Assembly: GCF_001913155.1 (NCBI RefSeq)
Contig: NZ_CP018760.1
Location: forward strand, 3,720,001-3,784,000
Direction: 5' to 3'
DNA length: 64,000 bases
Source: Maribacter hydrothermalis
GTDB taxonomy: Bacteria > Bacteroidota > Bacteroidia > Flavobacteriales > Flavobacteriaceae
Each line of letters begins with the position of its first letter. Position 1 is the first letter of the stretch. Of this stretch, positions 26,074 to 64,000 are shown one piece after another. Below the pieces are notes generated by a model. That model was not told the origin of the DNA. It searched no databases and worked only from the letters and a program-made list of their open reading frames with translations. The translations under genes were made by a program, and so were the position numbers.

Positions 26074-26596
26074 TAAAGGGGAGATATCAGTTAATAGTGA
26101 GTGAATCGGCTTGGCAAACACTCAAACGCAAGCTCAGGCTCCTTGCCAAGAAAACGTTGCCATTGTAATTAGCGGAAAGGCTACAGCGCTTAAAACTCAT
26201 CTAAGAGGATGGTTTAACAATTTCCGATTAGGAAATATAGGGGTCAAACTTAAAAAGCTGGATGAATGGTTACGGAACCGGTTACGCTTCTGCATATGGC
26301 ACGATTGGAAGAAACCAGAGCGCAAACGCAAGAATCTCATAGGTTTAGGTATAAAACAGGGACAAGCGTATGCTTGGAGCAGTACAAGAATGGGAGGATG
26401 GGCAGTAGCCCAAAGCCCAATACTTAGAACTACTATTACCGAAAAGCGCTTAAGAAAAAGAGGTTATCAAAGTATGCTGGCGTACTACCTTAGTGTAAAG
26501 TTCTGATATAACGAATCGCCGTGTACGAGACCCGTACGCACGGTGGTGTGAGAGGCGCAGTCCGTTCCTAACTAGGGGCGGATCCGTCTACTCGAT
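26074..26596 (+). mobile_element. 3' fragment of a group II intron
   Basis: This is about 90% similar to the last 520 bp of the full intron at 27869-29715: the maturase C-terminus (DWKKPERKRKNLIGLGIKQG), domain V (CCGTACGCACGGTGGTGTG) and domain VI ending CTACTCGAT. One base is missing relative to the full copy, which breaks the maturase frame, and everything upstream is deleted. The 3' edge falls inside the core of the recombination site of cassette C1: the next bases, TAGCTGC, complete GTTAGCTGC once the intron is removed. Confidence 0.85.
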
Positions 26597-27650
26597 TAGC
26601 TGCTACCTTTTTTTCAATTTTCAACTGGGTTAGGTCGGTCAACTTCTTGCCATCATATTTCCACAAATTTCCTTTTCTACCACCAAACCACATATTTCCA
26701 TCTTTATCTTCTATGATTGTTCTTATCGAAATTCCTGATAATTTGTCTAAAGATTTGAAACTCCCATTTTCAAAATAGCAAAGAGCTTCTCTGTCGCTAC
26801 CTACCCAAATTTTTCCGTCTGAACTCTGGAATATAACGGCAACATTATTATTACACAAACCATTACTTTCATTAAAGTTTCTAAAGTTTTTTCCGTCAAA
26901 CTTATCCAATCCACCGTTTCGATTTCCATTAGTTCCTATCCAAATGTTTCCTTCTTGGTCTTGATACAGATAGCGGACCATATTATCACTTAATCCACTT
27001 TCCGTTTTGTACTCTTGGAATGTTTCGCCATCGTATTTGGTTATTCCGCCATTACTCATTGAAGCAAACCAAATGTTTCCATTTTTGTCCTTTAAAATGC
27101 TTTGTATGACATTGTGATGAAGATTATCTTCATATTTTCTGCCTTTCTCAGCCAATATATTTTGAAATGTTGTTCCGTCATATTTATAAGCACCACCACC
27201 TGAAGTTCCAATCCAAAATATTCCATTTTTGTCTTGAATTATTGAATTTGCTTGGTTTGGGTTGATTGTTGGGTAAATGTTTTTGTACCATTCGCTACTT
27301 GTGTCAATATAGGGAAGTGAAATTTGAGTAAATTTTTTACCGTCATAATTGCACAAGCCTTTATTAGTTGCGAACCAAATTATTCCTTTGTCATCTTCAA
27401 TGATGTCCCATATTTGGTTGGTGCAAAGTCCATCATCTTCATTAAAATTTGTGAATTTTTCGCCATCAAATCTATAAAGTCCTTCGGTTGATGTCCCAAA
27501 CCAAAGGTCTCCATTTTTGTCTATTAAACTGCTTGTAACAATGTCAGCACTTGTATAAACTTTAGGTTCTTTTAATTCAACAGTTTTCTGTTTCTGTCCG
27601 TCACAAGAAAAAAATAGAAGTAAAGTTATTGTTGAAATCAGAAAGTTCAC
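26568..27650 (-). CDS. cassette C1: beta-propeller lipoprotein (two-component regulator propeller repeats)
   Basis: The likely start is GTG, giving VNFLISTITLLLFFSCDGQ, a lipoprotein signal with Cys acceptor, about 30 bases into the cassette. The body is a run of repeats with DKNGNIWFA/DKDGNMWFGG and YDGxxF motifs, the Reg_prop blades found in sensor histidine kinases of Bacteroidota, but here without a kinase. It is likely periplasmic. The end is unusual: the last nine codons and the stop come from the inserted intron fragment, because insertion in the site core removed the native stop. Confidence 0.75.
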   Translation of the reverse strand: MNFLISTITLLLFFSCDGQKQKTVELKEPKVYTSADIVTSSLIDKNGDLWFGTSTEGLYRFDGEKFTNFNEDDGLCTNQIWDIIEDDKGIIWFATNKGLCNYDGKKFTQISLPYIDTSSEWYKNIYPTINPNQANSIIQDKNGIFWIGTSGGGAYKYDGTTFQNILAEKGRKYEDNLHHNVIQSILKDKNGNIWFASMSNGGITKYDGETFQEYKTESGLSDNMVRYLYQDQEGNIWIGTNGNRNGGLDKFDGKNFRNFNESNGLCNNNVAVIFQSSDGKIWVGSDREALCYFENGSFKSLDKLSGISIRTIIEDKDGNMWFGGRKGNLWKYDGKKLTDLTQLKIEKKVAANRVDGSAPS

Positions 27651-27676
27651 TATTCTCTTTTGTTGTTTTAGGTTGC

Positions 27677-27868
27677 AGCTAACGGTTTTGTATATGGCTC
27701 GTAGCGTGCAAATAAGCTGTTTCCATTCGGTTGAGTACAAGCCAGATTTTTAAATTTTACTATTTATCTTTTTTTTGCGAAATCGTCAAATTTAAAAATT
27801 TGGCGGACTTCGCAAATATGCCAAAACTTCGTTTAAGCAACTGCCCAGCTATGAGCTATATACGGTGT
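27677..27868 (-). repeat. attC-like site S1 (split by a group II intron)
   Basis: The left core is GCAGCTAAC, and the outer arm GTTTTGTATATGGCTCG pairs with GAGCTATATACGGTG at the right. The centre has an AAATTT/AAATTT stem inside GCGAA/TTCGC. The right core continues after the intron at 29716 as TGTAAAC, giving GTTGTAAAC when spliced. Confidence 0.85.
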
Positions 27869-28356
27869 GTGTGCCCAGTATGGGCATCTTTACCTTATAG
27901 CAATATAAGGATTTATTTAGAGGGTGTAAGTCCCTTATGCGCTGGAGTAACGTCTGGAAGCATTAGTAAGTCGCAAGGTTGTTAACTGTGAAGTTAGGAC
28001 TGAAGAAAGCGAGACTACAAAACTCGGTACTGACGAACAGGAACCGTATACAGAGGCATATTTACTTGGGTAAGCAAGCACATCATTGTAACGCCCCAAG
28101 AACACCAAAAGGGTAGATATGTAGATACGGCAGGGATCGAGCGAAAGAAGATGTTCTTACCTGGGGAGGTCTCCAAAGCTACGTGTAGCTACATGGAGAA
28201 GTCAGCAGAGGTCATAGTACTTTACAGGAAATGAGCTAGGGCAGAACCCTAGAGGACTCACAAGTAAGGAAGGACTGAACGTTAGATCACGTCCGGATTC
28301 GTATAGGAATCTGTTAATTGGATAGCCTATACCTAGAAGGACAAGAACAGTACGAA

Positions 28357-29628
28357 ATGATAGCAAAAGTAGTAGCAGCTAGAAACTTGAGCGACGCCTG
28401 TAAAAAGGTAGTCCGCAATAAAGGTTCAGCAGGAATAGATGGTATGACCACCCAAGAGCTAAAGGCATTTATAGATGCTCACCGCTCGAAAGTGGTACAC
28501 CAACTTATTTCTAAAAGCTACAGGTCACAAGCTATCAAAGGGGTAGCGATACCTAAGGCGAATGGTAAGACCAGATTACTGGGAGTACCAACGGTAGTGG
28601 ATAGATGGCTTCAACAAGCGGTAAGCCAACAACTGGTGATTCATTTCGAACTTGATTTCGAATCAGAGAGTTACGGTTTCCGCCCAAGGAAGAACCTTCA
28701 ACAGGGAGTATTAAAAAGTCAAGAGTACATCAATGACGGCTACCAAGACTTAGTAGATATCGACCTTAAAAGTTTCTTTGATGAAGTCCAACACTATAAA
28801 CTACTTCAGCTTATTTATAACAAGGTTAAATGTCCGACCACCTTATGGTTGATCCGCAAATGGTTACGAGCGCCTATTTTAAAGAATGGGCAACTGTGTA
28901 AGCGCAGAAAAGGATTGCCACAAGGCAGCCCATTAAGTCCGTTATTGTCTAACATCATGTTAGACCAATTGGACAAACATCTAAAAGTACGAGGGTTCAG
29001 GTTCATTCGCTATGCCGATGATTTCAGTATTTACACAAAATCAAAAGCAGCGGCACGAGCGATAGGGAATGAGGTTTATCTGTTTTTAAAGGAGAAACTG
29101 GATTTACCTGTCAACCGAGCAAAGAGTGGTATTCGTAGACCCTCTACATTCAAGGTGTTGGGTTATAGGTTTACGCCAGTCTATAAGAAAGGCGTAAAGG
29201 GGAGGTATCAGTTAACAGTAAGTGAATCGGCTTGGCAAACACTCAAACGCAAGCTCAGGTACCTTACCAAGAAAACGCTACCATTGTCATTAGCAGAAAG
29301 GCTACAGCGCTTAAAACTCATCTATAGAGGATGGTTGAACAATTTCCGATTAGGAAATATAGAGACCAAACTTAAAAAGCTGGATGAATGGTTACGTAAC
29401 CGACTACGCTACTGCATATGGCACGATTGGAAGAAACCAGAGCGCAAGCGCAAGAATCTCATTGGCTTAGGCATAAAACAGGGACAAGCGTATGCTTGGA
29501 GTAGAACAAGAATGGGAGGATGGGCAGTAGCTCAAAGCCCTATACTTAGAACTACTATTACTGAAAAGCGCTTAAGAAAAAGAGGTTATGAAAGTATGCT
29601 AACGTACTACCACGTTGTAAAGTTCTGA
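28357..29628 (+). CDS. group II intron reverse transcriptase/maturase
   Basis: The ATG start gives MIAKVVAARNLSDACKKV; a TTG 39 bases upstream is possible. Reverse transcriptase motifs are present in order: KGSAGIDGMTTQEL, KTRLLGVPTVVDRWLQQAV, YGFRPRKN, VDIDLKSFFDEV, GLPQGSPLSPLLSNIMLDQL, RFIRYADDFSIYT (catalytic YADD) and the thumb/maturase domain X (WLNNFRLGN, RNRLRYCIWHDWKKPERKRK). No HNH endonuclease domain follows. It lies in intron domain IV and splices and mobilises its own intron by reverse transcription at the target. Confidence 0.93.
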   Translation: MIAKVVAARNLSDACKKVVRNKGSAGIDGMTTQELKAFIDAHRSKVVHQLISKSYRSQAIKGVAIPKANGKTRLLGVPTVVDRWLQQAVSQQLVIHFELDFESESYGFRPRKNLQQGVLKSQEYINDGYQDLVDIDLKSFFDEVQHYKLLQLIYNKVKCPTTLWLIRKWLRAPILKNGQLCKRRKGLPQGSPLSPLLSNIMLDQLDKHLKVRGFRFIRYADDFSIYTKSKAAARAIGNEVYLFLKEKLDLPVNRAKSGIRRPSTFKVLGYRFTPVYKKGVKGRYQLTVSESAWQTLKRKLRYLTKKTLPLSLAERLQRLKLIYRGWLNNFRLGNIETKLKKLDEWLRNRLRYCIWHDWKKPERKRKNLIGLGIKQGQAYAWSRTRMGGWAVAQSPILRTTITEKRLRKRGYESMLTYYHVVKF

Positions 29629-29634
29629 TATAAC

Positions 29635-29715
29635 GAACCGCCGTATACGAGACCCGTACGTACGGTGGTGTGAGGGGTGCACTCCGTCATTTGATGGCGG
29701 AGCCATCCACTCGAT
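29635..29715 (+). ncRNA. intron domains V and VI
   Basis: Domain V is the hairpin built from CCGCCGTATACGAGACCCGT and ACGTACGGTGGTG; domain VI is the CTCCGTCA/TGGCGGAG hairpin followed by an A-containing 3' tail to ACTCGAT. The same two hairpins close the truncated copy at 26.5 kb with compensating changes. Confidence 0.7.
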
Positions 29716-29727
29716 TGTAAACTGGCT

Positions 29728-30333: not shown

Positions 30334-30350
30334 ATGTTTGTTTAGCTTGT

Positions 30351-30551
30351 TTACAACGGTCTTGGCTATGACAAGTAGGGCGGCGGACACGCACTAAACT
30401 TTCCGCCAAGCACTTAGCAAAACCTTTGGGTTTTGTTTTTTCTTTTTTTTCTGGACAAAGCAAAATCCCAAAGATTTTGCGGACTTTGCAAATACGCCCA
30501 AGCCCTTAAATATAGCACTTTCTGCCCTGTTTGTTATAGCCCGTGTTGGCA
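30351..30551 (-). repeat. attC-like site S2 (long type)
   Basis: Left core TTACAAC, right core GTTGGCA. Outer arms GGCTATGACAAGTAGGGC and GCCCTGTTTGTTATAGCC pair. The inner stem GCAAAATC/GATTTTGC belongs to the GCNAAATC series shared with S6, S7 and S9. Confidence 0.85.
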
Positions 30552-31462: not shown

Positions 31463-31492
31463 TGATATTTTTTTTAGCTTGTTGCCAACGTG

Positions 31493-31616
31493 TTTGTGTA
31501 TGGTTAGTTGCGTGGTTTAAGCGTTAAAGTTAGCAAATAAAAACCGAATAGAAAATCCGCGAGGATTTTCGTAAGTAGGCAAGAACCAAGCAATTAATTA
31601 TACACGGTGTTGTAAA
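31493..31616 (-). repeat. attC-like site S3 (common type)
   Basis: Left core TGCCAAC, right core GTTGTAA. Inner perfect hairpin GAAAATCCGCGAGGATTTTC with the preceding GCAAATAAAAACCGAATA. It supplies the stop codon and last residues of the C4 gene on its right. Confidence 0.88.
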
Positions 31617-32116: not shown

Positions 32117-32127
32117 AATTCAGGATT

Positions 32128-32431: not shown

Positions 32432-32564
32432 TTTACAACGTGTTTGTATATGATTAGTGGCGTGTGTAAGTAACTAATTTAGCAAATAAAAACCAAATAG
32501 AAAATTCGGAAGAATTTTCGTAAGAAAGCTCAAACTAGCCATTAATTATATACGGTGTTGTAAA
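32432..32564 (-). repeat. attC-like site S4 (common type)
   Basis: Left core TTACAAC, right core GTTGTAA. Inner hairpin GAAAATTCGGAAGAATTTTC: compared with S3, both strands of the stem changed together (CC/GG to TC/GA), preserving pairing. Confidence 0.88.
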
Positions 32565-33324: not shown

Positions 33325-33457
33325 TTTACAACGGTTTTGTGTATGATTAGTGGCGTGTTTAAGTAACTAATTTAGCAAATAAAAACCGAATAGAAAATCC
33401 GCGAGGATTTTCGTAAGCAAGCTCCAACTAGCCATTAATTATACACGTTGTTGCCAA
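33325..33457 (-). repeat. attC-like site S5 (common type)
   Basis: Left core TTACAAC, right core GTTGCCA. Inner hairpin GAAAATCCGCGAGGATTTTC. Between the cores it is identical to S21, because S5 and S21 are the own sites of the duplicated cassettes C6 and C22. Confidence 0.9.
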
Positions 33458-34073
33458 CTGGCTTTATTTCATTATTTCAGTCAGATAAACGATTCCGAAA
33501 ATCCAACCAACATAGAGTAGAGTGTAAGTCAGCGAGTAAACTGCTGAAATTCCAATATCTCCTTTTGTGTCTTTTGATTTATTAAAAACCAATTTTAATG
33601 CTCTGAAAAAAATCCAATACAACATTGCTAAAATTATAAAAATCGAAAACCAAAAGACAGCTTCTAAAACGATTAGTAAAATGATAATCAAAATTGTCAT
33701 TCCAATCCAGAGTAAAATGGATAAAATCAGTCCTCCAATTCCATCTCCAACTGAAACACTTGGCGTGTCAAAAGTCGGTGTTGCATTTGCCATTAAATCT
33801 CCACTTTTAAAATTCCGAAATTTTGGAAAGTTGTCAATCAGTCCGATTCCTTTATAAAGTCCGTAAGTCATAAACAGAAAAAGTGCTGTTGCAATAATTC
33901 CGAGAGACAAATAGAGATTTGAAGTCAGATTTCGGTTGTAATTAATTCCAGTCAGATAAACAGTCAGAATTGTAATTCCGATTACGAGTAATGAAACTAT
34001 GAAAACGGATTTTCCTTTTAAATAATTCTGTTTAATTTTCAATTCAGAGGTTTTTGGTCAGCTTGTTGGCAAC
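33330..34073 (-). repeat. duplicated cassette unit B, copy 1 (C6)
   Basis: Appears identical to 62074-62817 by eye. Identity begins at AACGG in the left site and ends at GGCAACG in the next; outside these cores the two flanks are unrelated. The unit is therefore one gene plus its own site. Confidence 0.92.
33464..34042 (-). CDS. cassette C6: five-helix membrane protein (copy 1)
   Basis: 192 residues with five predicted membrane helices (about 13-31, 42-62, 102-128, 129-150 and 167-188); the central pair is a continuous hydrophobic run (GMTILIIILLIVLEAVFWFS). The loop between helices 2 and 3 is Asp/Thr/Ser-rich. No named family. The protein encoded at 62208-62786 is identical. Start bases TTGCCAAC match end GTTGGCAA, a combination that differs by one base from neighbours and so tracks this cassette. 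Confidence 0.75.
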   Translation of the reverse strand: MKIKQNYLKGKSVFIVSLLVIGITILTVYLTGINYNRNLTSNLYLSLGIIATALFLFMTYGLYKGIGLIDNFPKFRNFKSGDLMANATPTFDTPSVSVGDGIGGLILSILLWIGMTILIIILLIVLEAVFWFSIFIILAMLYWIFFRALKLVFNKSKDTKGDIGISAVYSLTYTLLYVGWIFGIVYLTEIMK

Positions 34074-34263
34074 GCTCAGGCTATGGGCAGTGCGGAAGTA
34101 AACATACGATTAGTTTCCTCCACGCGAATAGCAAAATCTTTTTGTTTTGTTTTTTCTTTTTTTTGGCCAAAGCAAAATCCAAAAGATTTTGCGGTGTAGG
34201 TCGACAAGCCCAAGCCCTTGGTAAAGCACCGACGTCCGCATTGCCTATAGCCACTGTTGACAA
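34067..34263 (-). repeat. attC-like site S6 (long type)
   Basis: Left core TGGCAAC, right core GTTGACA. Inner stem GCAAAATC/GATTTTGC with loop CAAAA. Arms GGCTATGGGCAGTGCGGA and TCCGCATTGCCTATAGCC pair. Confidence 0.85.
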
Positions 34264-34612: not shown

Positions 34613-34795
34613 AACGGTCTCGTATATGGCTCGTTGCGTGCAGAAAGGCAATTGCCTTTCCGTCTGTCACGAGCCAAATCTTTTTGTTTTGTTTTTAATT
34701 TTTTTACGCTAAAAGCCAAATCCAAAAGATTTGGCGGTCTTAGCAAATATACGCAAGCCTTTGGTTAAGCAAATATCTAGCAATGAGCTATATAC
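34609..34795 (-). repeat. attC-like site S7 (long type, split by IS110 element)
   Basis: Left core GTCAAC, arm GTCTCGTATATGGCTCG pairs with GAGCTATATAC before the insertion. Inner stem GCCAAATC/GATTTGGC, a covaried version of the S2/S6 stem. The right core GTTGTAGCC lies beyond the insertion at 36094. Confidence 0.8.
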
Positions 34796-34842
34796 AACTT
34801 AAGTTTGATTCTCAGTAAATTGTTGATATAACTAGAAAGAAC

Positions 34843-34915
34843 AAAAGAGAGAATTAAGGTTACTATATACGGTGAAGCTTCAGACTTCGACAACATTGAT
34901 AATCCTTTCTCTTTT
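34843..34915 (+). ncRNA. candidate bridge-RNA target-binding hairpin of the IS110 element
   Basis: AAAAGAGA pairs with TCTCTTTT, then ATTA with TAAT, enclosing a loop. The 5' side of the loop contains CTATATACGGTG, identical to the right arm of attC-like sites here (for example S1). The 3' side contains GACAACA, whose inverse TGTTGTC fits the GTTGT core (TTGTTGTAGCC) of the interrupted site. A short GAAG/CTTC hairpin lies between. This is the layout of left and right target guides in IS110 bridge RNAs. By-eye inference. Confidence 0.5.
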
Positions 34916-35009
34916 ACTACTTAGATCACGTTCAGTTCTGTGAGACTTTAGATCTCGTTTTTAAGTTGTTGTGAGCAGAAGTAGCTGGTTCTTTCATAAA
35001 ACATTTCTT

Positions 35010-35978
35010 ATGATTAAATATAAAGAAACTTTTGGAGTTGACATCAGTAAAGATGTCTTTGATGTACATGGTAGTAGCAAAGGTCACGACCAGTATAAGA
35101 ACAATGAAACGGGGTTCAAGAAATACCTTAAGGAATTACCCAAAGGTTCATTGGTCGTTATGGAAGCTACCGGTTACTATCATTATAGGCTTGCACAGTT
35201 TCTTTACAAAAATAGTGTACTGGTATCCGTTGTAAATCCTTTATCGATAAAGCGATTTATACAAATGAAACTTGCCAAGGTAAAAACGGACAAGAGCGAT
35301 GCCAAGGCTATATGTGAATATGCCCTAATCAACGAGGTTCCTATTTACAATGCCTTGACGGATACCCAGAGCGAATGTTTACAGTTGTTCCGCTTATTGG
35401 ATACTTATTTAAAACAACGTACCGCGACCAAGAACAAGATACATGGGGAAGCTGTTTTGGGGATACCCTCAAAGTTTGTCTATCGTTCCTTGATACGTAA
35501 CAAGAAGCAGCTGAACAAAGAGGTAGCAGCTATCGAGTCAAAGATACTATCATTGGTAAAGGAGGACCAACAGGAGCAATTAACATTGTTAACGTCAATA
35601 CCAGGAATAGGACAAAAGACTGCATTGTTCTTAATTGTTGTCACTGACGGTTTCAACAAGTTCGAAACAGCAGCACAGCTTTGTAGTTATGTAGGTATAA
35701 CCCCCACGATACGAGAGTCGGGGAGCAGTGTAAGAGGTCGGGCGCGAATAAGTAAGGTCGGCAATAGAAAGCTTCGTAATCTATTGTTTCTATGTTCTTT
35801 CAATGCCTGTAAACACAACAAGGCATGCAGAGAAGTATATGAGCGAATCGTGAACAAGGGTAAGAGCAAGAAACTGGCACTGATAGCCGTTGCCAACAAA
35901 CTATTAAAACAGTCTTTTGCTATCGCAAAATCTGGCAGACCATATGATGAAACTTACGTTTCTATATTGCCTAGATAA
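35010..35978 (+). CDS. IS110-family transposase (DEDD recombinase)
   Basis: The ATG gives MIKYKETFGVDISKDVFDVH; a GTG 39 bases earlier is possible. N-terminal RuvC-like DEDD domain: FGVDISKDVFD (first Asp), VVMEATGYYH (Glu), and KTDKSDAKAICEYA (two Asp). C-terminal IS116/IS110/IS902 domain: LTSIPGIGQKTALFLIVVTD, SYVGITPTIRESGSSVRGR (catalytic-type Ser) and KLALIAVANKLLK. Length 323 aa fits. It makes seeker-type, RNA-guided insertions in characterised relatives (IS621). GC is higher than in neighbouring cassettes. Confidence 0.92.
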   Translation: MIKYKETFGVDISKDVFDVHGSSKGHDQYKNNETGFKKYLKELPKGSLVVMEATGYYHYRLAQFLYKNSVLVSVVNPLSIKRFIQMKLAKVKTDKSDAKAICEYALINEVPIYNALTDTQSECLQLFRLLDTYLKQRTATKNKIHGEAVLGIPSKFVYRSLIRNKKQLNKEVAAIESKILSLVKEDQQEQLTLLTSIPGIGQKTALFLIVVTDGFNKFETAAQLCSYVGITPTIRESGSSVRGRARISKVGNRKLRNLLFLCSFNACKHNKACREVYERIVNKGKSKKLALIAVANKLLKQSFAIAKSGRPYDETYVSILPR

Positions 35979-36090
35979 ATAGCATATAAATTGAATAAAA
36001 AAAGCTCAAGAATCTGTTTTTTGAATCTATGAGCCTAGATTAATATTGTCTCAGATTAAAGAAGAATTTGTTTGTTTTTTACCTCAGTTC

Positions 36091-36101
36091 TTTGTTGTAG
36101 C
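36091..36101 (-). repeat. attC-like site S7, right end
   Basis: TTTGTTGTAGC resumes the site after the IS110 element. The core GTTGTAGCCAG pairs with the start of cassette C8 (TTGTAGCCA), completing its cassette rule. Confidence 0.75.
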
Positions 36102-37411: not shown

Positions 37412-37480
37412 CTACAACGGTTGGTGTATGGTGCGTTTGCATCCCGAAGGGTGCATATGCACTATACATAGTGTTGTGCT
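37412..37480 (-). repeat. attC-like site S8 (short type, about 70 bp)
   Basis: Left core GCTACAAC, right core GTTGTGCTTA. This is the shortest site, close to the classical 59-base element size: arms GTTGGTGTATGGTGC and GCACTATACATAGTG with hairpin TGCATCC-CGAA-GGGTGCA. It is the own site of the ilv cassette. Confidence 0.85.
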
Positions 37481-48337: not shown

Positions 48338-48342
48338 CATTG

Positions 48343-51613: not shown

Positions 51614-51644
51614 TAGTGCTTTTTTTCTTTCCGCAAACTTGCTA

Positions 51645-51731
51645 GCGTTGGCAGAAGACATACTCTTTTGCAATTTTTGGCTTAGCGTTGGCTGTAGCGA
51701 ATTGCGAATGTGTATGGCTTTGAGCGTTGGC
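51645..51731. repeat. GCGTTGGC-rich repeat, copy 2
   Basis: About 85% like 25635-25720: three GCGTTGGC units with TTTTGCAATTTTTGGC and ATGTGTATGGCTTTGAGC between them. It begins right after the restriction endonuclease stop, at the same distance as copy 1 lies from the copper-resistance-like stop. Confidence 0.8.
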
Positions 51732-53264
51732 TTAATTCAGATTATTTCTAAAACTCTCAAAAACATCCTTTGTGTAGTTAGTCATATCTTCAAAGTTTTC
51801 GTTAACCTGTGTGACTTCTATAAATTCAGGTAATGTATAAGGTTTTATATTTACATCATAATCACTCGACTTGCTTTTTACAATTGAGTAATCAAAAAAT
51901 TCCCTCACATCTTGATGAATTGTGGGTGCAATAAATGATAAATATTTAATTAATCTATCATCAAACTCTTCATTCGAGTATAAATGCCTTATGACATTAG
52001 CTGTTTCGTGATTTAATTGTTGAGTTTTATTGCGAATTAAAGTTACTTCTATCAACCAATAAATATCGTTTGAAAAGATTTCTATATCTCCTTTATTTCC
52101 TGGTGCGTGAGAATATGGTTTTCCAATATGGTCTGCTTTATAGTTTGGTCTTATGGCAAACTCTTTACCATATTTTATGGCTATTAAAATTGAAACATAA
52201 AACTCTAACTTTAAAGGGTCTGGAATCTCCATAAATTCGTCAATTACAGAACTCCTTGAACCAATTTTGTTTATACTCTCAATAATTATTTCTTCGTCAA
52301 TATTATATTCATCTATTATGCTGAAAATCTTGTTTAAATAAAGGTTACCATCTATTCTATCTTCATCACGATATTTATAAACTATTTCTAAATATTCGTC
52401 ATTTTTAGAGTTTAAAGCATCAAAATACTCTTTTGGATTCTTTTTTTGTTCTTCTGATAAATGGAAGTCAACTGATAATAGTTCATTAACATATTCTCTT
52501 TTGTTTTCATTTAATTCTATCATTCTCTTGCCAATATATCTAATAGAAATAAAGCCAGAAATTATTAAAACTCTCCTTAAAACATCAGGATATGTTTTAG
52601 TTACAGTATCAAATTTTGTAACATTATATCCATTTGCTTCTAAAAAATCATAAGCTTCATCAGGACTATTAAAGCTATTTTCTTCTGTAATTTTGATAAA
52701 CTCCTCTACATCTCCATTTCTACTGAAAGTAGCCACAATAAACTGTTCGTAACTTATTCGGGACTTTTTTAATAATACACCAATAATAAATTTGAAAAAA
52801 TTAAAATCATTATCGTTTTTTCTGAAAGGCGATTTACTGTTGTACTTCATAGCTTGAACTGAAAAAGCTTCTTGTTCGGCTAATTCTTTATCTACAAACA
52901 TTCTACCGATTTGAGAAAATAAAAATGGCTCATCATATCTTGCGTAAACAAATCCTAATTCCTTTGGAAGCCAAGTATAATGATGAAATCGAGAAGCATA
53001 ACCAGCAGGAAAACCGCCTATTGCTTTTTTTGACCCATTAACCTCAATAACTAAATCTTGAATATCTTCAATTGTAGTATTATCTTCAATTGTAATCTTG
53101 TCGCTTGATACAATACCTTCGAGGTATAATTTTGATACAATTTTTAAAAGATTTACATCATTTAAAACCAATCCCTCAAACTCTTTTATACATTCTAAAA
53201 TACCAATATATCTTTCAGGGTTTCTTACAGCTGAATCGAATGTAATTTGTTTATATCTTGCCAT
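51732..53264 (-). CDS. type II restriction endonuclease, AlwI-like
   Basis: 510 residues encoded beside two adenine methyltransferases. A C-terminal nuclease segment reads APGNKGDIEIFSNDIYWLIE followed by VTLIRNKTQQLNHETANVIR, an arrangement (D...ExT...Q..HE) like that of AlwI-family enzymes that cut beside GGATC. The large helical N-terminal part would recognise DNA. Two separate methylases suit an asymmetric target. Specificity is an inference. It starts 4 bp after the first methylase and ends beside the GCGTTGGC repeat. Confidence 0.72.
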   Translation of the reverse strand: MARYKQITFDSAVRNPERYIGILECIKEFEGLVLNDVNLLKIVSKLYLEGIVSSDKITIEDNTTIEDIQDLVIEVNGSKKAIGGFPAGYASRFHHYTWLPKELGFVYARYDEPFLFSQIGRMFVDKELAEQEAFSVQAMKYNSKSPFRKNDNDFNFFKFIIGVLLKKSRISYEQFIVATFSRNGDVEEFIKITEENSFNSPDEAYDFLEANGYNVTKFDTVTKTYPDVLRRVLIISGFISIRYIGKRMIELNENKREYVNELLSVDFHLSEEQKKNPKEYFDALNSKNDEYLEIVYKYRDEDRIDGNLYLNKIFSIIDEYNIDEEIIIESINKIGSRSSVIDEFMEIPDPLKLEFYVSILIAIKYGKEFAIRPNYKADHIGKPYSHAPGNKGDIEIFSNDIYWLIEVTLIRNKTQQLNHETANVIRHLYSNEEFDDRLIKYLSFIAPTIHQDVREFFDYSIVKSKSSDYDVNIKPYTLPEFIEVTQVNENFEDMTNYTKDVFESFRNNLN

Positions 53265-53267
53265 TTA

Positions 53268-54239
53268 CTAATTATATATTTCAACTTCTTTTGAAGTTTT
53301 AGTTTTTAATGAAGAGATTTTATTTGCTTTATAATTTGTTATCAAAACCTCCTTAAACTCTTTATTAGAATTGTCGTGATAGCTAATGTAATTGCTTTTA
53401 ATATCTATAGAATAATGATTTTCACTCCATTTTAAAAACTGTTCGTTTATTTTTCCTTTATAGTGAGTTACATTAGATATCGCAAAGTTGATATTTTGTT
53501 CATCTAAATATTCAAGAAATTTGAGTAATCTTTCTTCTGTTTCTTGATTCCATAATTTGTTATACTCGCTAAACGTAATCAAATATGGTGGGTCAAGATA
53601 TACGAAATCATCATCTTGAAAATTTATGTTTTCAAAAAAGTCAAGAAAATCTAAATTGTGAAAAGTTGTATTCTTTTTTTTAATTAAATCAAAATAATTA
53701 TTTAATGCAGTTAAAGTGTTTTTGTTAAAATCAACATTTCCAACAGGTAGATTATATTCTCCTTTTGAGTTAAATCTTAACATACGATTAAAGCCATAAA
53801 TCAAAAGAACATACAAATGAAGAGTTGAATTAGCCTTACCAGAATTATAATCTTTTTTAAGTTTATTAAATCCTTCTTTGTTGAATTTTGCGTAATAAGT
53901 TTTTTTCCATTTTTCTCTCAATTCTTGAGGAACAATGTCTTTTATGTATGAATGTGATAATTTGTATTCTTGAATTATTTCAAAAACATTTTTGAAAAAC
54001 AAATCAGGGTTTTTAGATTGTCTTTCCAAAAAGTTGTGAATTTCAATAACATTTGAGTCAATATCGTTTAGTAAATATTCGTTTGCATTTACATTAAGGA
54101 AAACAGAACCTCCACCAGTAAATGGCTCGATAAAACGATTTATCGTTTTAGGAAAATATTTACTAATTTTTGGATAGAGTTTGTATTTATCTCCAACATA
54201 AAATAAAGGTGAACGAAATGCTTTGTTTTTATTTGTCAT
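53268..54239 (-). CDS. D12-class DNA adenine-N6 methyltransferase
   Basis: Dam-type layout: SPLFYVGDKYKLYPKISKYF at the start, AdoMet motif FIEPFTGGGSVFLNVNANEY, and catalytic DPPY in VYLDPPYLITFSEYNKLW. The middle (FNKEGFNKLKKDYNSGKANS) is the target-recognition region. It methylates adenine and would protect one strand of the partner enzyme's site. It overlaps the next gene (the HTH-methylase) by 11 bp, so translation is coupled. Confidence 0.9.
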   Translation of the reverse strand: MTNKNKAFRSPLFYVGDKYKLYPKISKYFPKTINRFIEPFTGGGSVFLNVNANEYLLNDIDSNVIEIHNFLERQSKNPDLFFKNVFEIIQEYKLSHSYIKDIVPQELREKWKKTYYAKFNKEGFNKLKKDYNSGKANSTLHLYVLLIYGFNRMLRFNSKGEYNLPVGNVDFNKNTLTALNNYFDLIKKKNTTFHNLDFLDFFENINFQDDDFVYLDPPYLITFSEYNKLWNQETEERLLKFLEYLDEQNINFAISNVTHYKGKINEQFLKWSENHYSIDIKSNYISYHDNSNKEFKEVLITNYKANKISSLKTKTSKEVEIYN

Positions 54240-55572
54240 ATTTTTTTGTTAGAAATAAAAATTCTTTATGGTCGTTAAAATCGGTTTTTCCTGTGTTGAA
54301 ATATGTATGTGATTGCTCAAAAGTTTTAGTTTCTCCAACATTATTAAGTATTTCCGTTATTTCTTCGAGCGTAATTTTGTTTTTGGAAGATTTACTTTTT
54401 GATTTATATGTGTTATTGTAAGAAACAGCTAAATATTTTACATCCAAATTTTCTACTAAATCCTTAAAAGTGTCTTTTGCTTGAACAGTACAATATTTGC
54501 TCATATTCTCTGGTTCAGGTTTTAATGCAACTCCGTATAATTTTGGCTTTTTCCATTGTATAAGATTTTCGTAAATATGATAAAATCTACTGTATTGTCT
54601 TGAATTATATGGTGGGTCGATATAGGCTATATCTCCTTTGATATTCCTAACTAATTCATTCGCATCTTCTTGATATATTTTTGCTCCTTTAAAATCAGAA
54701 GTTTGAATTAATTTAAAATTCAAAGGTCTTTTTGTAATTGGTTTTTTAATATATGCGTCAAAGTGACCAACAGTATTTGCAAGTTTGTCAATTGTATAAA
54801 TTAATGAAGTGAGTAAAATTGCGTATTCTCTCGAATTTAGGTCATTATTTTTTTTCTTTTTCTCAATATCTTGTCTTATGTATCCAATTTGTTTTGAAAC
54901 TTCCTTTTCATAAAATTTACCTCCGAAGTTTTTTGAAAAATAGTTTTCTCTTATAGATTTTGAGTTTAAAGTATTGTATTCATTTGCTAACTCAACAAGT
55001 TTGTTAGAATTCCATTTTAATGTACCGTAAAATGCTTGATAAGTTACATTGTTAGAGTAGAGTATGTCGTTTAGAATAACGGTTTTATATTTTTCCATTG
55101 CAGATTTTGCTACAATTGAAGTTCCAGAAAAAATGTCAATAAATGTTCCATTACCTTCTGTTTCAGATTCAATAATTTCCATTATCCAATCTGTCAATTT
55201 TGCTTTATTTCCAATATATCTGCGACTTTGTAGTTGGAACTTATCTTGATTCTTATAGTCATTGAAAAGATTTAATCCATATTTTAATTTTTGTTCTGCC
55301 AGATGAAAACCTTCAAGACCTAAATCCTCATTTTGAACTTCATAGATTATTTTGTCACTAATTAGTTGTCTAATCAAGTCATTTTCACTGTAACTATAAA
55401 ATTGAGCTAAACTTTGTACTTGTGGTTTTGTTGGAAGTCTTTTCCCTGTTTCAATTCGGCTTAATGAGGTGTAGTTAATTGAAGTTTTATCAGCAACTTC
55501 TTGTAGATGAAAACCTTTTGTTTCGCGTATTTCTTTTAAGGTATCTCCAATTGAAACTATTGTGTCCAACAT
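54229..55572 (-). CDS. HTH-controller fused to an adenine-N6 methyltransferase
   Basis: Residues about 7-65 form an XRE helix-turn-helix (GDTLKEIRETKGFHLQEVAD, KTSINYTSLSRIETGKRLPT). From residue 115 a D12-type methylase follows: FIDIFSGTSIVAKSAMEKYK (AdoMet), NDILYSNNVTYQAF and AYIDPPYNSRQYSRF (DPPY). The HTH part resembles the separate controller proteins of restriction-modification systems; here it is fused, so the enzyme may repress its own operon through the palindrome just before its start codon. First gene of the three. Confidence 0.88.
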   Translation of the reverse strand: MLDTIVSIGDTLKEIRETKGFHLQEVADKTSINYTSLSRIETGKRLPTKPQVQSLAQFYSYSENDLIRQLISDKIIYEVQNEDLGLEGFHLAEQKLKYGLNLFNDYKNQDKFQLQSRRYIGNKAKLTDWIMEIIESETEGNGTFIDIFSGTSIVAKSAMEKYKTVILNDILYSNNVTYQAFYGTLKWNSNKLVELANEYNTLNSKSIRENYFSKNFGGKFYEKEVSKQIGYIRQDIEKKKKNNDLNSREYAILLTSLIYTIDKLANTVGHFDAYIKKPITKRPLNFKLIQTSDFKGAKIYQEDANELVRNIKGDIAYIDPPYNSRQYSRFYHIYENLIQWKKPKLYGVALKPEPENMSKYCTVQAKDTFKDLVENLDVKYLAVSYNNTYKSKSKSSKNKITLEEITEILNNVGETKTFEQSHTYFNTGKTDFNDHKEFLFLTKKYDK

Positions 55573-55574
55573 AA

Positions 55575-55593
55575 TTTGACTTTTTTTGTCAAA
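55575..55593 (-). promoter_or_regulatory. palindromic operator and overlapping promoter of the R-M operon
   Basis: TTTGAC and GTCAAA are perfectly inverted around seven A/T bases, 3 bp before the ATG. A TATATTTG box (TAnnTTTG) overlaps its upstream half on the minus strand. This placement fits autorepression by the N-terminal HTH of the first gene. Confidence 0.6.
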
Positions 55594-55658
55594 TATAAAA
55601 ATATTCTTGAGAATTCAGATGTGTGCGAGGGAAAAAAGCAGCTCTTTTATTTTTTTCT

Positions 55659-55710
55659 GCGTTGGCTTTTCGCGTTGGTAAAAAAATAAATGTGCTGTTT
55701 GAGCGTTGGC
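55659..55710. repeat. GCGTTGGC repeat, copy 3 (reduced)
   Basis: GCGTTGGC, GCGTTGG and GCGTTGGC over about 50 bp, ending TGCTGTTTGAGCGTTGGC. It lies upstream of the restriction-modification operon, so the operon is flanked on both sides by this repeat inside its cassette. Confidence 0.65.
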
Positions 55711-55754
55711 GTTTTTATTTCAAATGTTCAAGTTTAGCTCGATTTCCGCATTAC

Positions 55755-55849
55755 TTACAACGGTTGGGTATATATGCAGTACCCAAAGCACGGATATTAA
55801 AATTTAACACAAACCTTAATAGGGTATTGTATATATACCTTGTTAGCAA
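55755..55849 (-). repeat. attC-like site S15 (short type)
   Basis: Left core CTTACAAC, right core GTTAGCAAC. Outer arms GGGTATATATGCAG and GGGTATTGTATATATACC pair; there is no long inner stem, and the site is about 95 bp. Confidence 0.78.
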
Positions 55850-55860: not shown

Positions 55861-56085
55861 ATGAAATTTGATTTAACAAAAGTAGAATTTGACCAAGACG
55901 ATTTAAACACTTTACACGATGTGATTTTTAACGCATTAGATAAGGAAGATTTAACAAACGAACAGATTATGGAATACTGGAATATGTTTCCAGAACATAT
56001 AAAGTTAGATGCGTTAAAATGGGGTGTGAGTGATACACCTACAAGAGATAAAATCTATGTTTGGCTTCAAGAAAATTGTTGCTAA
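55861..56085 (+). CDS. cassette C16: small acidic protein on the opposite strand (74 aa)
   Basis: The ATG gives MKFDLTKVEFDQDDLNTLHD, 17 bases after the core GTT; the stop TAA is formed by the other core (TGCTAAC). The frame thus fills the cassette exactly, but reads against all other cassette genes. The protein is acidic and helical (LTNEQIMEYWNMFPEHIKLD, ALKWGVSDTPTRDKIYVWLQ) and ends in two Cys. No family known. Cassette ends TTAGCAAC/GTTGCTAA match. Confidence 0.7.
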   Translation: MKFDLTKVEFDQDDLNTLHDVIFNALDKEDLTNEQIMEYWNMFPEHIKLDALKWGVSDTPTRDKIYVWLQENCC

Positions 56086-56217
56086 CGTTTTGCTGCTTTG
56101 CATCAGTGGCTTGTGATTTAAGACTGACCATAACAAATATAGACAAAATTTCGATTCGTAGAGGTTTTTCCGAAGGAAAAACCAAGCCCAAGCCATTGTG
56201 CAAAACAGTTGTTAGGC
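56082..56217 (-). repeat. attC-like site S16 (GNA-loop type)
   Basis: Left core GCTAAC, right core GTTAGGC, which is the classical GTTRRRY integron core. Arms GTTTTGCTGCTTTGCATCAG and GCCATTGTGCAAAACAGTTG; inner hairpin GGTTTTTCC-GAA-GGAAAAACC. Confidence 0.87.
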
Positions 56218-56926: not shown

Positions 56927-57058
56927 GCCTAACGGTTAGTATATGAAAAGTAGGCGATTTTGAAGCACTAAACTTTCAGTTAAGTACAAAGCTTGATAAG
57001 AGCTAAAAGCCTTGAATTTATTACTGTTTCGCCTATTTTTTATATACATTGTTACCTG
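56927..57058 (-). repeat. attC-like site S17
   Basis: Left core TGCCTAAC (classical RYYYAAC), right core GTTACCTGC. Arms GGTTAGTATATGAAAAGTAG and CTATTTTTTATATACATTG; no clear inner perfect stem. Confidence 0.8.
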
Positions 57059-59361: not shown

Positions 59362-59494
59362 AGGTAACGTGTTCGTGTATGATTAGTTGCGTGGTTAAGC
59401 ACTAAATTTAGCAAATAAAAACCGAATAGAAAATCCGCAAGGATTTTCGTAAGCAAGCCAGAATCAAGCAATTAATTATACACGGTGTTAGCGG
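59362..59494 (-). repeat. attC-like site S18 (common type)
   Basis: Left core AGGTAAC, right core GTTAGCGG. Inner hairpin GAAAATCCGCAAGGATTTTC with the standard GCAAATAAAAACCGAATA before it. Confidence 0.88.
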
Positions 59495-60704: not shown

Positions 60705-60754
60705 TAATTTTTTTCGTCTTTTAAATGTTTGTCGGAGGTCGTTTTTTGCCTGAC

Positions 60755-60887
60755 CGCTAACGGTAAGTGTATGAAATGGGCGAGTTTGCGTCCGAGGATT
60801 TTCCGCAGGAAAATCGGAAGGTGGCAAACGCACATTTACACTTGATTAGGGACTAAAGTAAGCATTTTTTATACACTATGTTGGCAA
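60755..60887 (-). repeat. attC-like site S19 (GNA-loop type)
   Basis: Left core CCGCTAAC, right core GTTGGCAAC. Inner hairpin GATTTTCC-GCA-GGAAAATC; arms AAGTGTATGAAATGGGC and GCATTTTTTATACACTATG. Confidence 0.85.
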
Positions 60888-61091: not shown

Positions 61092-61220
61092 AACGGTTTT
61101 GTGTATGATTTCGTTGCGTGTTTAAGCACTAAAGTTAGCAAATAAAACACAGATAGAAAGTCCGCGAGGACTTTCGTAAGAAAGCTATAACTAGCAATGA
61201 ATTATACACGGTGTTGGCAA
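61088..61220 (-). repeat. attC-like site S20 (common type)
   Basis: Left core TGCCAAC, right core GTTGGCA; inner hairpin GAAAGTCCGCGAGGACTTTC. Between the cores identical to S11, the own site of the duplicated cassette. Confidence 0.9.
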
Positions 61221-62076
61221 CTGTATTTATTTGTTTTTTAGCACCTTAGAATATTTCATGTTAAACTTAATTGTTTCTCCAATTTTCAATTTCTGACTAG
61301 GATAGTATGGTTCATTAATAACCATATTATCGTAATTGCAATCAGGATAATCAATAACTCTGTATACTAGATTATATCCGCCCTTACGTTTATTTTTCTT
61401 AGTAATTACTCCTTTGATAATACAATCAAAGTTTTCTCCATCATAAGTATATGAATATGGATTCAAAGTTGTAATGTCTGTACCATTATGTCTTTGAATT
61501 ACATTGTACGGAACTTTTATAATATCTCCTATTTTCAGTTCATTAAATTTTGTTTTAATCTGTTTCTTTCTCAATTTATCTTGTCTTCGAATTTCGTCAA
61601 GATTTGGGAAGTCTAGTTCAAACTTTCTAATGACACAAGGTTTTTCGGTTTTGAAAATTCCTTTTTGAAAAGCTTGAGAGTGCAATTCCGTTAATTTTTC
61701 AAACTCTTTTTTGCGTAGTCTGTCAACTTTTCTTGGTGACATAAAATCATATGTAGAAGCCAAAAACAGAATTATCTCTAGATTTTCACATTCTTTTGGA
61801 ACTGAAATTGTTGCCCATTCATAGCCAACTCCAGCAAAAATTAATTTATCCGTTTCTTTGGGTAATTTAATTTTGAAATAACCATTCAAGTCTGACTGTC
61901 CGATTTTGATTGTATCCTTGTCGAATATTGTTATTCCAATTGCACTTTCCAAAAATTGGTCAATAGTTTTTCCACTTAAAGTCCGTTGACCAAATGCCGA
62001 AAAAACGCATAAAAAGAATGATATGAAAAATGTTGTTTTAAATCTCAATGTTTTCGGTTTGGATATTGTTGCCAAC
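61092..62076 (-). repeat. duplicated cassette unit A, copy 2 (C21)
   Basis: Second copy of 49017-50001, moved to lie directly beside unit B. Identity covers gene and site, and nothing outside the cores. Confidence 0.92.
61227..62048 (-). CDS. cassette C21: secreted protein with carboxypeptidase-regulatory-like domain (copy 2)
   Basis: The encoded protein is identical to that of C12, including the TTG-start signal peptide FKTTFFISFFLCVFSAFG and the SDLNGYFKIKLPKE domain. As the DNA also appears identical, the copies are recent, or both are kept by recombination. In this place it lies directly beside the second copy of the five-helix membrane protein, though the first copies are 15 kb apart. 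Confidence 0.7.
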   Translation of the reverse strand: MRFKTTFFISFFLCVFSAFGQRTLSGKTIDQFLESAIGITIFDKDTIKIGQSDLNGYFKIKLPKETDKLIFAGVGYEWATISVPKECENLEIILFLASTYDFMSPRKVDRLRKKEFEKLTELHSQAFQKGIFKTEKPCVIRKFELDFPNLDEIRRQDKLRKKQIKTKFNELKIGDIIKVPYNVIQRHNGTDITTLNPYSYTYDGENFDCIIKGVITKKNKRKGGYNLVYRVIDYPDCNYDNMVINEPYYPSQKLKIGETIKFNMKYSKVLKNK

Positions 62077-62201
62077 GGTTTTGTGTATGATTAGTGGCGT
62101 GTTTAAGTAACTAATTTAGCAAATAAAAACCGAATAGAAAATCCGCGAGGATTTTCGTAAGCAAGCTCCAACTAGCCATTAATTATACACGTTGTTGCCA
62201 A
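62070..62201 (-). repeat. attC-like site S21 (common type)
   Basis: Left core TGCCAAC, right core GTTGCCAAC; inner hairpin GAAAATCCGCGAGGATTTTC. Between the cores identical to S5. Confidence 0.9.
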
Positions 62202-62817
62202 CTGGCTTTATTTCATTATTTCAGTCAGATAAACGATTCCGAAAATCCAACCAACATAGAGTAGAGTGTAAGTCAGCGAGTAAACTGCTGAAATTCCAAT
62301 ATCTCCTTTTGTGTCTTTTGATTTATTAAAAACCAATTTTAATGCTCTGAAAAAAATCCAATACAACATTGCTAAAATTATAAAAATCGAAAACCAAAAG
62401 ACAGCTTCTAAAACGATTAGTAAAATGATAATCAAAATTGTCATTCCAATCCAGAGTAAAATGGATAAAATCAGTCCTCCAATTCCATCTCCAACTGAAA
62501 CACTTGGCGTGTCAAAAGTCGGTGTTGCATTTGCCATTAAATCTCCACTTTTAAAATTCCGAAATTTTGGAAAGTTGTCAATCAGTCCGATTCCTTTATA
62601 AAGTCCGTAAGTCATAAACAGAAAAAGTGCTGTTGCAATAATTCCGAGAGACAAATAGAGATTTGAAGTCAGATTTCGGTTGTAATTAATTCCAGTCAGA
62701 TAAACAGTCAGAATTGTAATTCCGATTACGAGTAATGAAACTATGAAAACGGATTTTCCTTTTAAATAATTCTGTTTAATTTTCAATTCAGAGGTTTTTG
62801 GTCAGCTTGTTGGCAAC
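62074..62817 (-). repeat. duplicated cassette unit B, copy 2 (C22)
   Basis: Second copy of 33330-34073, with flanks that differ immediately outside the AACGG and GGCAACG cores. Confidence 0.92.
62208..62786 (-). CDS. cassette C22: five-helix membrane protein (copy 2)
   Basis: Identical to the C6 protein: five membrane helices with the hydrophobic GMTILIIILLIVLEAVFWFS run and a polar loop after helix 2. It is expressed, if at all, in a new neighbourhood: upstream lies site S22 rather than S6. No family recognised. Confidence 0.75.
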   Translation of the reverse strand: MKIKQNYLKGKSVFIVSLLVIGITILTVYLTGINYNRNLTSNLYLSLGIIATALFLFMTYGLYKGIGLIDNFPKFRNFKSGDLMANATPTFDTPSVSVGDGIGGLILSILLWIGMTILIIILLIVLEAVFWFSIFIILAMLYWIFFRALKLVFNKSKDTKGDIGISAVYSLTYTLLYVGWIFGIVYLTEIMK

Positions 62818-62943
62818 GTGTTTGTGTATGATTAGTGGCGTGTTTTAAGCACCTAATTTAGCAAATACAAACCGAATAGAAAATCCACAAGGATTTTCGT
62901 AAGTAAGCTCGAAATAGCTATTAATTATACACGGTGTTGTGCG
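62811..62943 (-). repeat. attC-like site S22 (common type)
   Basis: Left core TGGCAAC, right core GTTGTGCGC. Inner hairpin GAAAATCCACAAGGATTTTC. Its right arm gives the UPF0158 gene its last residues and stop codon. Confidence 0.88.
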
Positions 62944-63371: not shown

Positions 63372-63763
63372 TATTTAATCAAATCATTATGTAGATAAAC
63401 CACTTCCGATTTTTTCCAAAAAGCCAAGTTAATTAATCCAGTCGTACTTCCGTCAATCCAATTCCCATTTTCATTAGATTGTACAGTCCATTTTATTGGT
63501 CTACCACTTTTTTTGACTGTTTTTAATCGGCAATCTTTGGAAAGTCCGAACGCAAAACAATTCAAAGCATCGATTTCGTTATCAAATTCCTCGTGCCATA
63601 TATCAAATGCAACAGTATAATTTCTGTTTCCATTTGAAGTTAACGATACTGAAAATCCGTTGTCGTTATTTTTCTTTACGATAACTGAATTTTCGTCCAG
63701 TTTATAATCGGCATTCGGATACTTTTTCAGTCTTTCAATTATTTCGCTTATTGCTTTGTCCAT
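63371..63763 (-). CDS. cassette C23, first gene: hypothetical protein (130 aa)
   Basis: The ATG gives MDKAISEIIERLKKYPNADY, 22 bases inside the cassette; a GTG in the core itself would add seven residues. The rest is a beta-rich small domain (VIVKKNNDNGFSVSLTSNGN, VAFDIWHEEFDNEIDALNCF, GRPIKWTVQSNENGNWIDGS) without a family I can name; the WHEEF and DALNCF pattern recalls small immunity proteins. It is coupled to the UPF0158 gene by a TAATG overlap. Confidence 0.6.
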   Translation of the reverse strand: MDKAISEIIERLKKYPNADYKLDENSVIVKKNNDNGFSVSLTSNGNRNYTVAFDIWHEEFDNEIDALNCFAFGLSKDCRLKTVKKSGRPIKWTVQSNENGNWIDGSTTGLINLAFWKKSEVVYLHNDLIK

Positions 63764-63780
63764 CGGTTTTGTCAGCTTGC

Positions 63781-63912
63781 GCACAACGGTCTCGGCTATG
63801 AGCAGTTGGGGATTTTATGCCCTAACTTTTCGGTTTAGCACTGACCTTTGTTTTATGTTTATACTTTCGTTTTATCACTTTAGTCCCAATTGCTTATAGC
63901 CATTGTTGTGCG
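63781..63912 (-). repeat. attC-like site S23
   Basis: Left core GCGCACAAC, right core GTTGTGCG. Arms GGTCTCGGCTATGAGCAG and CAATTGCTTATAGCCATTG pair; inner TTGGGG/TCCCAA pairing instead of a compact hairpin. Last site in the window. Confidence 0.82.
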
Positions 63913-63921
63913 TTCGTATTT

Positions 63922-64000
63922 TTAGTTCTTTATAGGTGTACAAATTTCAATTAAAAATCCATTATTATCTAAAACATACCCCACTTTCTGTCCCCAGGGT
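63922..64000 (-). CDS. cassette C24 (partial): C-terminus of a VOC/glyoxalase-family protein
   Basis: Only the last 25 codons lie in the window: PWGQKVGYVLDNNGFLIEIC followed by TPIKN. The PWGQ...YVxDNNGxLIEI pattern is the C-terminal end of vicinal-oxygen-chelate proteins (glyoxalase, bleomycin/fosfomycin resistance type), with the metal-ligand Glu in LIEIC. The gene continues to the right. Too little is visible to choose an activity. Confidence 0.75.
   Translation of the reverse strand, partial: PWGQKVGYVLDNNGFLIEICTPIKN

Follow-up and report, generated by a model that had tools for sequence, protein, structure and literature searches.

The analysed window, a stretch of 64,000 nucleotides (nt) from Maribacter hydrothermalis (Flavobacteriaceae; contig NZ_CP018760.1, positions 3,720,001 to 3,784,000), holds from position 26568 to its end at 64000 an array of gene cassettes of the integron kind, which runs on for another 1.8 kb past the window edge. 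Twenty-five units make up the array, 23 of them complete in the window, one lying partly and one wholly beyond the edge. They are divided by the 23 imperfect palindromes S1-S23 that an earlier first-pass annotation had claimed for this region and that were all found there; S24 and an attI-like site follow past the edge, and the array ends in the gene of a 375-amino-acid (aa) tyrosine recombinase. It is proposed, with a probability of about 0.83 and on the evidence of sequence, that this adjacent recombinase, which lacks the insertion typical of integron integrases (IntI), has built and shuffled the 25 cassettes by acting on the folded bottom strand of the palindromes, with crossover at G^TT. 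Two defining features of integrons that were tested fail here, namely the additional domain of IntI and the extrahelical bases of attC sites, and for this reason the arrangement is classed as integron-like, its recombinase being insertion-less.

The minus strand carries the open reading frames (ORFs) assigned to cassettes; only in C16 is the gene reversed, and C7 contains no ORF of at least 80 aa; apart from these two units, the cassette is a gene with an attC-like palindrome at its 3′ side. Since the palindrome stands at the 3′ side of the gene, the minus strand corresponds to the "top" and the plus strand to the "bottom" strand in integron terms. The stop codon of the recombinase gene faces the array, and the cassettes are read in the direction of that gene.

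Cassette ends, duplicated blocks and folded sites

One regularity concerns the cassette ends. According to the first-pass annotation, the 6 to 10 bases at the start of each unit are the exact inverse of those at its own end and differ from those of the neighbours. The rule itself holds in all units, with a slightly narrower span: own-end complementarity amounts to 6-9 nt in 24/24 units C1-C24, and to 8 nt in C25. The difference from the neighbours holds at 21 of the 24 palindromes, the remaining three having neighbours that share 7-9 nt. Summed over the array, the complementary runs reach 199 (C25 counted as 0) compared with at most 118 in 20000 permutations of the ends, and a chance origin of the matching ends was rejected. 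Matching ends at random positions, which would have spoken against the rule, are rare, a run of 6 occurring in 359 of 50000 random GTT/AAC pairs outside the array; among end pairs from different units such a run is seen in 49/600, owing to recurrent arms (the 25 comprise 19 distinct 8-mers). The outer stem extends beyond the run, with G.T at position 10 in 17/22 units and pairing at positions 11-13 in 19-21/22, as counted in 22 of the 25 units (the duplicates C21 and C22, as well as C25, were left out). The core consensus GTTRRRY fits only 1/25 cores, so that the earlier statement that most cores miss it can be retained.

Two blocks of the array are present twice. C12 (49017-50002) and C21 (61092-62077) form an identical pair of 986 nt, C6 (33329-34074) and C22 (62073-62818) one of 746 nt; each block consists of a gene and its 3′ palindrome, and all four breakpoints fall, within one base, at AAC, which is GTT on the top strand. 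From these identical blocks and their breakpoints it can be rationalized that gene and 3′ palindrome move as one block and that the crossover probably lies at G^TT. Palindromes moving without their genes, as expected of a stand-alone repeat and named beforehand as the case that would overturn the integron reading, were not seen in either duplicated block. The second copies, C21 and C22, lie side by side, as successive insertions would leave them; the other copies are 15.7 kb apart. The sites, the duplicated blocks and the larger features are compiled below, where no strand is given for the sites, S0 denotes the split site before C1, and the last three lines use coordinates extended past the window edge.

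26070-26596 (start approximate), plus strand: group II intron lacking its 5′ end, with only the 3′ part left (RF00029 match below gathering, 35.3 bits), at S0 on the left end of the array, followed by C1 as (T)TAGCTGC
27681-27868: attC-like S1, its GTT split by an intron at GT|T
27869-29715, plus strand: group II intron in S1 (RF02001, 121 bits; RF00029), with reverse transcriptase/maturase at 28318-29628 (RVT_1, GIIM)
30355-30547: attC-like S2, top strand folds better
31487-31611: attC-like S3
32437-32559: attC-like S4
33330-33452: attC-like S5
33329-34074, minus strand: block C6 + S5, identical copy (746 nt) at 62073-62818
34071-34258: attC-like S6
34613-36096: attC-like S7, interrupted by an IS110-family element
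34971-35978, plus strand: IS110-family transposase in S7
37416-37475: attC-like S8, short (60 nt), 3′ side of C9
37476-45558, minus strand: cassette C9, 8.1 kb, ilv-like genes, ends TTGTGCTTA/TAAGCACAA
45559-45746: attC-like S9
46497-48344: attC-like S10, interrupted by a DDE-transposase insertion sequence (IS) at 46659-48254
49017-49140: attC-like S11
49017-50002, minus strand: block C12 + S11, identical copy (986 nt) at 61092-62077
49999-50121: attC-like S12
50672-50796: attC-like S13
51421-51608: attC-like S14
51609-55758, minus strand: cassette C15, restriction-modification
55759-55844: attC-like S15
56084-56213: attC-like S16, top strand folds better
56931-57053: attC-like S17
59366-59489: attC-like S18
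60759-60882: attC-like S19
61092-61215: attC-like S20, identical to S11
62074-62196: attC-like S21, identical to S5
62815-62938: attC-like S22
63785-63907: attC-like S23, last in the window
64858-64984: attC-like S24, past the window edge
65774: attI-like site, past the window edge
65821-66948, minus strand: tyrosine recombinase, past the window edge

With DNA folding parameters, the bottom strand folds more stably in 19/21 sites that no element interrupts, a set with two pairs of identical copies; S2 and S16 are the exceptions. A wider set of 79 sites, 21 from this array and 58 from other species, shares an inner stem of 14 positions, parted from the outer stem by an unpaired central spacer that measures 6/3 nt in 49/79 and 5/3 nt in 16/79 of the sites. 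The scorer used for the spacer lengths, for the structure-only scan and for the chaining of units is biased towards the bottom strand and admits no bulge; the counts of wobble pairs and a looser form of chaining rest on strand-neutral scoring. When 81 kb were scanned for structure only, 17 bottom-strand sites emerged, all within the array, together with 2 top-strand sites. A naive palindrome scan with AAC/GTT was swamped by chance matches and discarded, and a scan against Rfam gave no attC-type match, parts of group II introns being the only credible matches.

Extrahelical bases are reported in PMC2727003 to direct strand choice and to occur in every known attC site that serves as a single-stranded substrate (see also PMC3053210). 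No such bulge is present in 75 of the 79 sites; as a control, a similar script detected a bulge in 7/8 sites that could be chained when eight loci with canonical IntI from the phylum were examined, two of which chained nothing. The inner stems carry instead a polar set of mismatches. Over 77 distinct sites, the non-Watson-Crick pairs of the bottom strand comprise 173 G.T, 2 A.C and 19 others, and the G.T wobbles concentrate at inner-stem positions 7 (62/77) and 12 (65/77); their counterparts on the top strand are A.C mismatches. This suggests that two fixed G.T wobbles may mark the strand in place of the extrahelical bases.

A tentative sequence of events can be formulated along these lines. 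In a postulated cassette circle the two ends would come together and form an outer stem that spans up to 13 positions, and a single bottom strand would fold into the outer stem, an asymmetric unpaired spacer (mostly 6/3 nt) and the inner stem. The recombinase would then bind this hairpin, with the two wobbles telling it the strand, and recombination with the attI-like site would place the cassette beside the recombinase gene; cassettes would in consequence share the reading direction of that gene. In nearer relatives, a divergently oriented 131-aa zinc protein with a treble-clef-like motif may assist or regulate these steps, which is a guess.

The recombinase, its attI-like site and its occurrence

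The recombinase (375 aa) is encoded on the minus strand at 65821-66948. The interval from its catalytic Lys to the HxLRH motif spans 48-62 aa in 60/60 members of the family (broken or cut members, L039, L042 and L045-L047 in our numbering of loci, left out) as opposed to 103 aa in 20/20 IntIs, from which it follows that the IntI-specific insertion is missing and the protein is not an IntI. Against TIGR02249 it scores 218.7 bits, with a cut-off of 265, in a match broken into two pieces. No match over the IntI cut-off was found in the complete genome of the organism; the strong IntI matches leave out positions ~180-236 of the profile, and 195-297 is covered by a single weak match of 21.5 bits. 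The first-pass annotation had proposed to look beside such arrays for a tyrosine recombinase with the integron-type extra helix: a recombinase does adjoin the array, the insertion does not come with it, and the system is therefore more unusual than that annotation had supposed. By family as well as by structure, the core is matched best by XerA (archaeal)/NF040815, "site-specific tyrosine recombinase/integron integrase", the structural matches covering the core and not the N-terminal part. In an unrooted tree the insertion-less recombinases branch between XerC/D and IntI, and they are perhaps close to IntI as it was before acquiring its extra domain.

Directly after the recombinase stop, at 65774-65820, a dyad centred ~17 nt from G^TT constitutes a putative attI-like site next to the recombinase gene, comparable sites offering insertion points such as ATTG^TT or ACG^TT. 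Over 47 distinct dyads, the arms still pair at 0.66 of positions compared with a maximum of 0.50 after shuffling, the observed value being raised by the choice of the anchor according to best symmetry. Between close relatives the symmetry of the dyad is kept while its sequence changes, as if shape were kept.

Head-to-head with the recombinase gene lies that of the 131-aa protein with the Cys4 treble-clef-like motif (L009:4992-5390), in 34/35 close loci (not L025) and in 28/29 of the further close loci L071-L099 (not L096); in L135-L141 it was not found, so that it appears as a partner in the nearer family only. A separate observation concerns a module upstream of all three recombinases of this family in the genome, which is present in few other loci and is perhaps a carrier element (L009:5410-7954, L012:5351-7896, L013:3778-6287). 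It encodes another tyrosine recombinase of ~440 aa together with two smaller proteins, one of ~230 aa and one, zinc-finger-like, of ~140 aa.

The genome holds three full-length recombinases of the family, the other two being 81 and 63% identical to the first. All three have matches to the site model on their 3′ side, the nearest at 0.8, 2.1 and 9.5 kb; of 27 model matches in the genome, 18 belong to the first array, and 3 and 2 to the 3′ sides of the other two recombinases, at 9.5 and 2.1 kb for the nearest, respectively. Four further matches lie away from the arrays, at G000:C1:141240, 1425728, 2113147 and 3604245. A search through reference genomes yielded 35 loci, made up of 33 at 51-83% identity and two weak ones without sites; the 33 are titled Flavobacteriaceae or Flavobacteriales, except one "Bacteroidetes bacterium". 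In these 33 orthologue loci, the site model R1 places 58 of its 59 matches on the array side of the recombinase: 58 in 113 kb on the 3′ side and 1 in 305 kb upstream, all 59 in one orientation. Where the 3′ flank exceeds 1 kb, 19/21 loci have an R1 match. The boundary rule recurs in other species in 47/56 units (permutation maximum 12; pairs from different units 169/3080), the 56 units having been formed from the 58 downstream matches with the upstream one, in L033, left out, and in Zobellia (L017) it is obeyed by 7/7 units whose sites came from the structure-only scan.

The recombinase occurs in 51/299 genomes of the family of the window, and profile A4 of the wider group, short relatives included, matches 113/395 genomes of the phylum. 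Of seven long stretches picked among the wider relatives, five have arrays whose units, 12 in all, chain from the attI-like site; L140 shows no sites, and its frame of 302 aa is too short to include the N-terminal part. With flanks of 1.5 kb, one or more units chain from an attI-like GTT in 18/28 close and 14/26 wider loci (17/26 and 12/23 without loci fetched twice), in 1/5 short relatives and in 0/21 XerC/D-like loci; these counts cover loci with at least 400 nt of flank, and six of the wider loci are also among the seven long stretches. The looser strand-neutral scorer gave 16/16 in wide loci preselected for sites or long flanks, which is not a rate.

Canonical IntI, by comparison, scores over the cut-off in 105/395 genomes of the phylum, and the 107 IntI-matching genomes divide into 106 graded "same phylum" and 1 "same class", with none from the family of the window. 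With a scorer that allows a bulge, units chain at canonical IntI loci on the 3′ side in 3/8 (L172, L175, L178) and on the 5′ side in 3/8; these are best chains over many starts with arms of 5-7 nt, and single units among them may be chance. The bulge-blind scorer chained units at 0/16 IntI 3′ sides, which says little and is no control, because it allows no bulge.

Competing explanations and relation to known systems

The integron-like array recognized in the first-pass annotation thus finds support in the boundary rule, in the movement of gene and palindrome as a block, in the folding of the bottom strand and in the recombinase with its attI-like site. A number of observations weigh against the proposal that the insertion-less recombinase operates it, or limit its reach. 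Only position connects the recombinase with the sites, and the layout with the array on the 3′ side is not unique to its family, as the canonical IntI loci illustrate. In the tree the insertion-less group is possibly, but not securely, a single clade (79/75). At the sites themselves, position 9 of the outer stem pairs in only 10/22 units (9 T.T, 3 G.T), and the wobble bias is weaker in the wider arrays (G.T 44, A.C 17). In the second array of the same genome 1/4 tested units matched (the attI anchor was misplaced, and IS sequence ends two units); in other species 9/56 units break the rule, some of them long and possibly concealing sites that were overlooked, for which L017 gave an example. No R1 match is present in L035 and L040 despite more than 1 kb after the recombinase, the unit of L035 that was tested fails the rule, and L137, among the seven long stretches, has sites that form no chain. 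Chaining is furthermore not free of background, since one or more units chain from 10/420 random GTT starts (several starts were tried per locus) and the looser scorer chained 1/19 XerC/D-like loci.

Were the recombinase to act on double-stranded sites in the manner of Xer or Cre, the palindromes would be paired binding sites or terminators and no folded strand would be needed. This is unlikely: the outer arms vary between cassettes and are yet complementary within one, a match for which a double-stranded site has no use, nor does such a site need non-Watson-Crick pairs in the inner stem, which are nearly all strand-polar G.T. The array might also be a canonical one whose IntI has been lost or works in trans, i.e. 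a cluster of attC sites lacking integron integrases (CALIN), next to which the recombinase is incidental. Arrays without an integrase are known, according to a section of PMC9024848, and canonical IntI is common in the phylum at 105/395 genomes. This origin is nevertheless very improbable, as the complete genome yields no IntI over the cut-off, none of the 107 IntI-matching genomes comes from the same family, the bulge seen in 7/8 sites at canonical IntI loci is absent in 75/79 sites of the present kind, and the co-location of recombinase and array repeats in many loci. That the palindromes are stand-alone mobile or regulatory repeats between genes, such as miniature inverted-repeat transposable elements (MITE) or repetitive extragenic palindromic (REP) sequences, could be argued from the four model matches away from the arrays and from the other transposable elements within the array; it is scarcely credible, since gene and palindrome were duplicated together with exact ends and every gene unit carries a matching pair of ends.

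The system read as cassettes moved by the insertion-less recombinase thus resembles a sedentary chromosomal integron (IntI/attI/attC) in its unit of gene and 3′ imperfect palindrome, the G^TT crossover, the boundary rule, an attI-like site beside a tyrosine recombinase, and hairpins that favour the bottom strand and enclose an unpaired central spacer. It departs from one in that the recombinase is without the IntI additional domain, 75/79 sites have no bulge, two fixed G.T wobbles being present in the stems instead, GTTRRRY is kept in 1/25 cores, and the attI-like site is a dyad of variable sequence. The orientation of the recombinase gene, which reads towards the array, is shared with the 3/8 canonical loci of the phylum and with the Treponema integrons as described in part of PMC3607928; these carry IntI, whereas its insertion is missing here. 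From XerA/NF040815 the recombinase is set apart by an extra ~100-aa N-terminal part and by its place at cassette arrays.

Messier and Roy (2001) reportedly found, by the title of their paper, the additional domain of IntI to be necessary for activity. It is likewise called necessary in a passage of the archaeal integron paper PMC9668308. If a cassette system works without this domain and without extrahelical bases, both the minimal needs for recombining a folded single strand and the origin of integrons become testable. There is about an even chance that Bacteroidota carry a second integron class, whose recombinases never had the IntI domain and choose the strand by G.T wobbles, and which, branching between XerC/D and IntI in the unrooted tree, may show what integrons were before the domain. 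A survey which selects proteins by the IntI domain, as PMC2426708 describes in one part, would not count such arrays. The 2022 survey of complete genomes names, in the portion of PMC9024848 considered here, one complete integron of Bacteroidetes, that of Salinibacter ruber M1, besides those of Chlorobi and Ignavibacteriae, in contrast to the 113/395 sampled genomes of the phylum with a recombinase of the wider group (the short relatives, of which 1/5 chained, included). Titles and opening lines of abstracts, with preprints and most subscription journals outside this coverage, describe no such arrays in Flavobacteriaceae, and an earlier description is possible.

Inserted elements and cargo

Several of the sites have themselves been targets of insertion. 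The full group II intron splits the GTT of S1 at GT|T and lies on the bottom (plus) strand, opposite to the cassette genes; its 5′ junction rests on a reading of the sequence, and its 3′ junction on such a reading plus a separate search. A truncated second intron precedes C1 at the split site S0 and has the same end, ACTCGAT, as the full one, and a 71% identical intron occupies the same GT|T place in L041 (Formosa) at 12436-14313. The same placement, in the GTT of the site, on the bottom strand and opposite to the cassette genes, is reported for group IIC-attC introns in part of PMC7923331, where the target is TTGT/T, unlike the GTGT/T found here; the present intron is classed by its Rfam and Pfam matches only.

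The IS110-family element of S7 is represented in the genome by five end matches at four sites (two in tandem at one), namely 34971-35978 in the window and G000:C1:3830036, 3833286, 3833361 and 1180308; all are attC-like, and the insertions share roughly one position, near the unpaired spacer. By their placement, the group II intron and the IS110-family element may be regarded as independent readers of the sites. S10 is interrupted by the DDE-transposase IS, with CCATTGT on both sides, and in L041 (Formosa) a 67% related IS lies inside an attC-like site near 18443.

The cargo includes HEPN, glyoxalase, UvrA-like and DUF proteins, and in C15 a restriction-modification set of an AlwI-type restriction enzyme with two D12-class adenine methyltransferases. 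Few cassettes are shared between the arrays compared, C12 recurring in L034, C4a in the second array of the genome and C19b in L077. C9, at 8.1 kb unusually large and with a cargo of core metabolism, contains genes resembling a complete ilvE-ilvD-ilvB-ilvN-ilvC-ilvA operon, and its ends obey the boundary rule; a second ilvC lies ~93 kb away (G000:C1:3664875), so that at least the ilvC of the cassette is an extra copy.

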